This document shows, piece after piece, positions 25,579 to 37,755 of a DNA stretch of 64,000 nucleotides (position 1 is the stretch's first letter; each line of letters begins with the position of its first letter). A program made the position numbers and the translations under genes. Below the pieces are notes generated by a model. It was given only the letters and a program-made list of their open reading frames with translations, searched no databases and was not told the DNA's origin. This DNA is from Sulfolobales archaeon (lineage in GTDB: Archaea; Thermoproteota; Thermoprotei_A; Sulfolobales; NBVN01), in the NCBI GenBank assembly GCA_026419835.1, contig JAOAKQ010000002.1, positions 62,001 to 126,000 of the forward strand, written 5' to 3'.

Positions 25579-25811
25579 TCCCATGGTGATCATGGGAATC
25601 GCTCCCGGGGGGCCGCAACCGCCATCGGGTAGCCGGCCGGGGTCCAAGTCAGCAAAGCTTATTAGCCGGGAACCCTCATCCCACGAACACCATGGGAATC
25701 AGTAGGGAGGTTTCCGATGGGTAAGTGGTTGGGGTTTATATGCTTTTCGGTCGCGCGCTCCCACGCGTGCTCCCACGGTGCGCTTGGGGTATTCCCATTT
25801 TATACTTGGGA
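25579..25811. promoter_or_regulatory. Multi-dyad regulatory region upstream of csa1: TCCCA-N9-TGGGA sites
   Basis: Sites at 25579..25597, 25679..25697, 25793..25811, and TCCCA-N9-TGGGG at 25771..25789. Confidence 0.6.
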
Positions 25812-25918
25812 TTTTTCCCTGAGTTCCCCGCTCCGTGCTTCCCCGCTCTTCCCTCCGCCCGCCTGGGAGTTCTCAGCACTCCAATTTCTGAATAGTTATC
25901 TAATTACTTGCTCCCGGT

Positions 25919-26809
25919 GTGCCGGGGCGCCACGTGGTCGTGAGGACTGAAGCGCTACTCAGGTGGCTGAGGATTCTGAGGTCTCTCGCTGAGGGGTACC
26001 CAGTCGAGTCCGAGCTGAGGGGGTGGTCCTGGCAGTTCCCGCCGGTTAGACCCAGGTCCTACCTGGGGCTATCGGTTCAGGACGCTGTATCCTACTGCCC
26101 GACGAAGCGCGACGTCTGGCTGAGGAGGGTTGCCGGTGTTAGGGTCCAGCCGACTCAGTACATGAGGACCGGCTCGGCGGTCCACGACGTGGTGTTCTCC
26201 GTAGCCTCCCTAGTTAGGAGGCACTTCAACGCCAACCAGGACTTCGAGAGGCTCTCGAGAGCTGTGGGTAGGGTCGTGGAGTTGAAGAGCCGCGAGTGCC
26301 CCTCGGAGGAGTGCGTTAAGATCGTCAGGAGCGTTGGGTGGTTGACGTACCACACTGCCGCCTCCGAGTGGCTGTGGTCTGGCGCCGGGTCCCTGCCGAT
26401 ACCGGCTACGGCGAGCCTCTGCGAGGTGAGGGTCGATGGGTCCCCGGTGGGGCTGAGCGGTAGCTTGAGGGTGGACTCATTGCCGGTTCCGAACGTAGTC
26501 GTCGACATCAAGACTGGGAGGAAGGTCGAGGCACACGAAGTATCGCTAACGGCGTACGCACTGGCGCTGGAGTCGGCACTTGAAACGCCCGTGGACTTCG
26601 GGCTGCTGGTGTACGTGTGGTGGAGCGGGGGACTTCAGGTAGACCTAAGGGGGGTCTACATAGGCCCGGACCTGAGGAGAATGTTTCTGGATTCGAGAGA
26701 TGAAGCTATAGACATAATACTCTCGAGAAGGGAACCCCCGAATGCCGTTGAGTGCCCGCAGGCGTGTCCCTACGTGGAGGTGTGCGGGCGTGAGAACGCT
26801 CGTAGTTAG
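25919..26809 (+). CDS. csa1: Csa1 (Cas4-family, type I-A acquisition)
   Basis: YCPTKRDVWLRR...; C-terminal CPQACPYVEVCG cysteine cluster; VVDIKTGRKVEAHEVSLTAYALALE nuclease motif. Confidence 0.85.
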   Translation: MPGRHVVVRTEALLRWLRILRSLAEGYPVESELRGWSWQFPPVRPRSYLGLSVQDAVSYCPTKRDVWLRRVAGVRVQPTQYMRTGSAVHDVVFSVASLVRRHFNANQDFERLSRAVGRVVELKSRECPSEECVKIVRSVGWLTYHTAASEWLWSGAGSLPIPATASLCEVRVDGSPVGLSGSLRVDSLPVPNVVVDIKTGRKVEAHEVSLTAYALALESALETPVDFGLLVYVWWSGGLQVDLRGVYIGPDLRRMFLDSRDEAIDIILSRREPPNAVECPQACPYVEVCGRENARS

Positions 26810-37453: not shown

Positions 37454-37635
37454 GCACCATTCATATCGTATCCTACACCGGGTTCTTCGCATACGCTAAA
37501 CTATGGGATGGGTAAGAGTAGGAGTTCGCACCGTGCCAACTTGCGCAAACACTCTAGGTATGTGCGCGAAGACCGCCTCCACAGCCGCGGGGTAGTAGCA
37601 AAACTTATTTACTTCGGAAACCCTGCTCTATCGGT

Positions 37636-37673
37636 AGCCGGGTCGTCTAGCGGCCAAGGATGCGGGGCTTTGG
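37636..37673 (+). tRNA. 5' half of tRNA-Gln(TTG), no 3' half nearby; candidate split tRNA
   Basis: AGCCGGGTCGTCTAGCGGCCAAGGATGCGGGGCTTTGG: acceptor 5' strand, D-arm pairs (GTCT/GGAT), anticodon 5' stem and loop CTTTGGA; no T-arm or CCCGGCT follows before the next gene. Confidence 0.6.
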
Positions 37674-37755
37674 ACCTCGGCCGCTGCCCCACTACCTACC
37701 TTTACAAACTTTCTCGGAGAGCTCCTTTAGTTAGCTGTGCATTGTTGGTGAGTAC

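Follow-up and report, generated by a model that had tools for sequence, protein, structure and literature searches.

A predicted trans-spliced tRNA-Gln(UUG) and a second 5′ half that may share its 3′ half in a genus of Sulfolobales archaea

A 64,000-nt stretch of DNA from a heat-loving Sulfolobales archaeon (GCA_026419835.1, contig JAOAKQ010000002.1, positions 62,001 to 126,000; hereafter the window) very probably encodes the 5′ half of a tRNA-Gln(UUG) that is split between two loci and trans-spliced. The window lies on contig C30 of an archaeal assembly of 1.42 Mb (107 contigs, 84% complete). Positions 37636-37673 (G000:C30:99636) read AGCCGGGTCGTCTAGCGGCCAAGGATGCGGGGCTTTGG, which comprises the entire tRNA-Gln(UUG) 5′ half through tRNA position 37 and has the same sequence as the corresponding portion of relatives' intact tRNA-Gln(TTG) genes. 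Neither a T-arm nor an acceptor strand lies downstream, and neither ARAGORN nor the Rfam model RF00005 calls a tRNA at this site; as an observation, the orphan 5′ half is confirmed. The original prediction had described such an orphan, followed after position 37 by GC-rich sequence without T-arm or acceptor strand and preceded by an AT-rich tract, and the analysis bears out each of these elements, the tract containing a TATA-like element with a putative promoter role.

The two 5′ halves and the remote 3′ half

To find the partner, we searched the whole genome for a T-arm pattern that continues into the matching acceptor strand. A single exact match was obtained, at G000:C19:304183-304203, within a locus that reads GGGGCAGCGGCCGAGCGGGAGAT-CCCCCGTGACCGGGGTTCGAATCCCCGCCCGGCTA-CCA. 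The relevant features are as follows.

Window 37604-37611, + strand: TATA-like element CTTATTTA, 32 nt 5′ of tRNA position 1, putative promoter
Window 37636-37673, + strand: 5′ exon of tRNA-Gln(UUG), positions 1-37, with anticodon TTG at 37670-37672
Window 37674-37690, + strand: GC-rich pairing tail ACCTCGGCCGCTGCCCC, directly 3′ of the 5′ exon
G000:C19:304147-304207, + strand: 3′ half of tRNA-Gln, on a contig other than that of the window
G000:C19:304147-304169, + strand: 3′-half leader, 23 nt, including GGGGCAGCGGCCGAG
G000:C19:304170-304207, + strand: 3′ exon C38-A73 plus CCA, with anticodon-stem strand, T-arm and CCCGGCT acceptor strand
G000:C30:160763-160817, + strand: second 5′ half, tRNA-Gln(CUG), anticodon CTG, same genome

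Window positions 37676-37690 (CTCGGCCGCTGCCCC) are the exact reverse complement of the 15-nt leader segment GGGGCAGCGGCCGAG, which sits 8 nt upstream of the orphan tRNA-Gln 3′ exon. By our own arithmetic (2.8 million positions), about 0.003 such 15-mer complements are expected genome-wide, and since this one adjoins an orphan 3′ exon, chance can be excluded. The tRNA stems are completed across the two halves (acceptor AGCCGGG/CCCGGCT, anticodon CGGGG/CCCCG), and joining G37 to C38 gives the same sequence as the intronless tRNA-Gln genes of relatives, ...CTTTGGCCCCCGTGACC, with the loop CUUUGGC. A complementary leader ahead of a matching exon thus supports the split tRNA that had been proposed. 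The proposal had overlooked the second 5′ half, with anticodon CTG, which pairs with the same 3′ half.

No intact tRNA-Gln was detected in this genome, where 43 tRNAs score above the Rfam cut-off with no Gln among the anticodons read, nor in any of the seven species of the genus when searched at the DNA level with both halves (genomes 79-97% complete), so the suggested check for an intact gene came out in favor of the split. Both glutamine codons are in use, with 31 CAA and 130 CAG in an uncurated set of 30 window open reading frames of at least 250 aa.

Conservation within the genus and competing explanations

The genus sample comprised seven species (G000-G006), the six congeners being the metagenome-assembled genomes (MAGs) KUA_Bin18, SKW299, Bin S11, GXS.bins.2.201912, S1_Bin_METABAT__364_1 and 331_1, labeled as Sulfolobales, Desulfurococcales, Desulfurococcaceae or Thermoproteota archaeon. 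All seven carry a TTG 5′ half, a CTG 5′ half and one 3′ half, and in all seven the TTG half is followed by a FEN1 gene. Because this synteny is universal although the FEN1 proteins are only 75-85% identical across the genus (one species only partly covered), the split predates the radiation of the genus.

The trans stem itself is conserved through sequence change. Pairing the tails of the two isoacceptors with the leader in each of the seven species gives 14 combinations, in which standard pairs form at 207 of 210 positions, a count that omits one extra base in the G002 leader. Compensatory double changes were observed at pair 8 (G-C to A-U), pair 10 (U-A to C-G) and pair 11 (G-C to A-U). When leaders were reassigned among species, only 8 of 5040 assignments did equally well, which is explained by three species pairs having identical, interchangeable leaders.

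These data bear on the possibility that the half is a decayed tRNA-Gln gene or an attachment-site remnant whose tail matches the D-loop complement by accident. tRNA 3′ ends often serve as integration sites, and the tail can indeed pair in cis with the D-arm segment AGCGGCCAAGG (duplex of -18.7 kcal/mol), as had been pointed out originally. This complementarity, although present in the window species, is not conserved in the genus: it weakens to -12.1 kcal/mol in G005 and G006, where trans pairing is retained by compensatory change. A pseudogene is further contradicted by the retention of the half in seven species despite the divergence of the flanking FEN1, and by the joint persistence of two 5′ halves and one 3′ half with no intact gene found. 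We therefore regard decay as very improbable.

A single gene interrupted by a very long intron, or an intron-bearing gene parted by an assembly artifact, is equally hard to credit. Relatives do possess introns at 37/38, two of them long (155 and 175 nt), but the 5′ and 3′ halves lie on different contigs in seven assemblies, with FEN1 and other genes close by the 5′ half, and two 5′ halves cannot both adjoin one 3′ half. The halves also have their own TATA-like boxes, putative promoters that throughout the genus stand some 32 nt ahead of most 5′ halves and 29 to 32 nt ahead of the 3′-half leaders. Least probable of all is a permuted (circular) gene of the kind present in Thermofilum (PMC3218864), since no 3′ half occurs close to the 5′ half in any of the seven species, as the original prediction held for the window, and the junction is a 37/38 motif between separate loci.

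Several further features of these loci were noted. The last codons of a MoaC-like gene (L125 375-881, G000:C30, minus strand) run antisense into the CTG 5′ half; in at least three species its stop codon falls within the D-loop region, which makes the pairing tail coding on the opposite strand as well. In KUA_Bin18 (G004:C2; L067, L129), the TTG and CTG halves occupy opposite strands of a single contig with 24 kb between them, and their upstream promoter regions are nearly identical, which suggests recent duplication or gene conversion. Finally, a 3′ half identical with its flanks to that of G001 was found in another genus (G019:C23:409-469; L096), in an assembly that also has two intact tRNA-Gln genes; this contig probably represents contamination of the G019 assembly.

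Splicing junction, machinery and proposed mechanism

Cofolding of the junction yielded a bulge-helix-bulge (BHB) with a 4-bp helix and a 3′ bulge in 10 of the 14 combinations. Across combinations, the motif consists of the helix C32-G, U33-A, N34-G and U35-G with bulges GGA and AWC. In the ARMAN-2 endonuclease-RNA structure, the phosphate next to the central nucleotide of the bulge is attacked by that nucleotide's 2′-OH (PMC12397907), and cuts are therefore expected at G37|A and W|C38. The genome encodes two tRNA_int_endo (PF01974) proteins, one of 199 aa and one of 213 aa, that share 26% identity and fit the (αβ)2 type of endonuclease linked to split tRNAs. One of these genes (G000:C19:301289-301537; L212-L218) lies about 3 kb from the 3′ half in five of the seven species.

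We propose that separate promoters would yield two RNAs, a 5′ half (exon 1-37 plus the 17-nt tail) and a 3′ half (23-nt leader, exon 38-73 and CCA), whose tail and leader would anneal by 15 GC-rich base pairs. Beside this trans stem, a BHB with helix pairs C32-G, U33-A, U34-G and U35-G and bulges GGA and AUC would be presented to an (αβ)2-type endonuclease, predicted to cut past the second base of each bulge (G37|A and U|C38). A tRNA ligase would then join G37 to C38, producing a mature tRNA-Gln as in intronless relatives. The CUG 5′ half would take the same 3′ half, such that three genes could supply both Gln isoacceptors.

Several points weigh against this model. The remaining 4 of 14 stem-only cofolds favor a variant without canonical bulges, and in full-length minimum-energy cofolds the acceptor and trans stems form but the cloverleaf arms do not, although the latter says little because the same program misfolds the mature tRNA too. 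In addition, transcription, annealing, cleavage and ligation are all inferred from sequence, and the assembly is 84% complete. The halves themselves, their complementarity, their conservation with compensation in seven species, the failure to detect an intact gene and the two endonuclease genes are established by the genomic comparisons.

Origin of the split and relation to known systems

In other sampled genera of the same family, tRNA-Gln genes are intact, most with an intron at 37/38. In introns of intact genes, A faces position 34 within the helix in 18/18 TTG genes, and G does so in 20/20 CTG genes (raw counts, uncorrected for shared ancestry), a covariation that supports the BHB helix and is expected if this base pairs with the wobble position. 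All shared 3′ halves that were detected (the window's genus, G043/G053, G037, G047 and G061) have G as the facing base, which pairs with both U34 and C34. G056, which has separate 3′ halves, carries A in the TTG one and G in the CTG one. We lean toward the view that tRNA-Gln is a repeated target of splitting in this order and that 3′-half sharing depends on a G facing wobble position 34, since only G pairs with both U34 and C34.

In the same order but other families, the tails of split tRNA-Gln are unrelated; each is matched exactly over 11-16 bases by its own leader, and a G056 tail set against the wrong leader matches only 4-5 bases. Unrelated tails, together with intact genes elsewhere in the window's family, argue for several independent splits. 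Two further loci are apparent intermediates between an intron and a split gene. In the MAG Ignisphaera sp. SKYB63 (L149/L194), the TTG halves lie 175 nt apart and are linked by the stem CGGTCGCCGTTGCCC/GGGCAACGGCGACCG, with a T-run after the tail and an AT-rich promoter-like element before the leader, while G041 (L078) has a tRNA-Gln(TTG) with a 155-nt intron containing a similar self-pairing stem and an AT-rich inner promoter-like element. Both resemble the tRNA-Asp of Aeropyrum pernix, which has been experimentally demonstrated to be made as two transcripts. Same-site introns in relatives, along with these adjacent-half and long-intron states, indicate that splitting came after intron gain. 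In G012 (L231, L232), G011 (L115) and G014 (L117), intact tRNA-Gln genes contain a second intron near 32/33 besides that at 37/38; 32/33 is the split site of Nanoarchaeum equitans tRNA-Gln.

The gene neighborhood of the shared 3′ half resembles both tRNA-Gln regions of relatives. The three genes upstream of it are those found upstream of the intact TTG gene in G007, G008, G022 and G030, at nearly the same distances (G030 matched for two of the three genes), and the gene downstream, together with the upstream endonuclease gene, lies near the CTG gene in G008, G020, G021 and G030. A rearrangement involving both tRNA-Gln regions is likely. Simple descent of the 3′ half from the CUG gene, as its CUG-type helix base might imply, is weakened by its upstream block being that of the intact UUG gene in four relatives. 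Because the 3′ half occupies the place of the relatives' UUG gene yet carries G, the CUG gene may have lost the need for a 3′ half of its own once the facing base had mutated from A to G, or once conversion by the CUG gene had introduced G.

Previously described split tRNAs come from N. equitans, Caldivirga maquilingensis and four Desulfurococcales. The closest parallel is N. equitans tRNA-Glu(CUC)/(UUC), in which two synonymous 5′ halves use one 3′ half joined at 37/38 (PMC3218864, PMC4390854); that case, however, concerns another tRNA in another phylum and a single reduced parasite genome, whereas the present one is genus-wide in seven Thermoproteota species. N. equitans tRNA-Gln(UUG) likewise shares isotype, anticodon and two-half organization with the window's tRNA, but is joined at 32/33 instead of 37/38, and here CUG is also split, with a common 3′ half. 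Staphylothermus tRNA-Lys(CUU), from the same wider archaeal group, resembles our case in its trans stem (13-14 bp) and canonical BHB and has a recent origin from an intact gene (PMC3218864), although there one tRNA per genome is split with halves adjacent or a few kb apart, unlike the remote halves and two isoacceptors described here. The split and tri-split tRNAs of C. maquilingensis similarly combine a constant half with swapped anticodon pieces (PMC4390854), but none is a tRNA-Gln: they serve Gly, Glu and Ala, and some consist of three pieces. Of the hallmarks of archaeal split tRNAs, the window's genus shows separate exon loci, a GC-rich complementary tail and leader within the usual span of some 12-16 bp, a predicted BHB (canonical or relaxed in such tRNAs) and no detectable intact gene, and the window's genome has two PF01974 genes that would fit a heteromeric (αβ)2 endonuclease; putative promoters precede most halves. 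Split tRNAs and shared 3′ halves are thus already known; our search of the open-access literature, with subscription papers and tRNA databases outside its scope, found no report of this case or of any split tRNA-Gln in this order.

A long-standing debate concerns whether split tRNAs preserve an ancient assembly of pieces or result from recent breakage of intron-bearing genes. Within one order, a single tRNA presents a series: intronless; with a short intron; with a long self-pairing intron that contains a TATA-like box; a split of one isoacceptor; splits of both, each with its own 3′ half; and splits of both with a shared 3′ half. This series favors a late origin of splits in these lineages and suggests a simple base-pairing rule by which two tRNAs could share one half, the split case illustrating that a tRNA gene can break apart and yet appear workable. 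To gene finders designed for whole tRNAs, here ARAGORN and the Rfam model, these genomes seem to have no tRNA-Gln.

A genome-wide search for orphan T-arms that might mark additional split tRNAs returned, besides the Gln 3′ half, only two tRNA-like pieces, both at contig ends. With introns allowed, ARAGORN also called a tRNA-Ser(CGA) with a 252-nt intron at window positions 25718-26066; this call probably arose by chance, given that Rfam has no match there and that an ordinary tRNA-Ser(CGA) is present at another locus.
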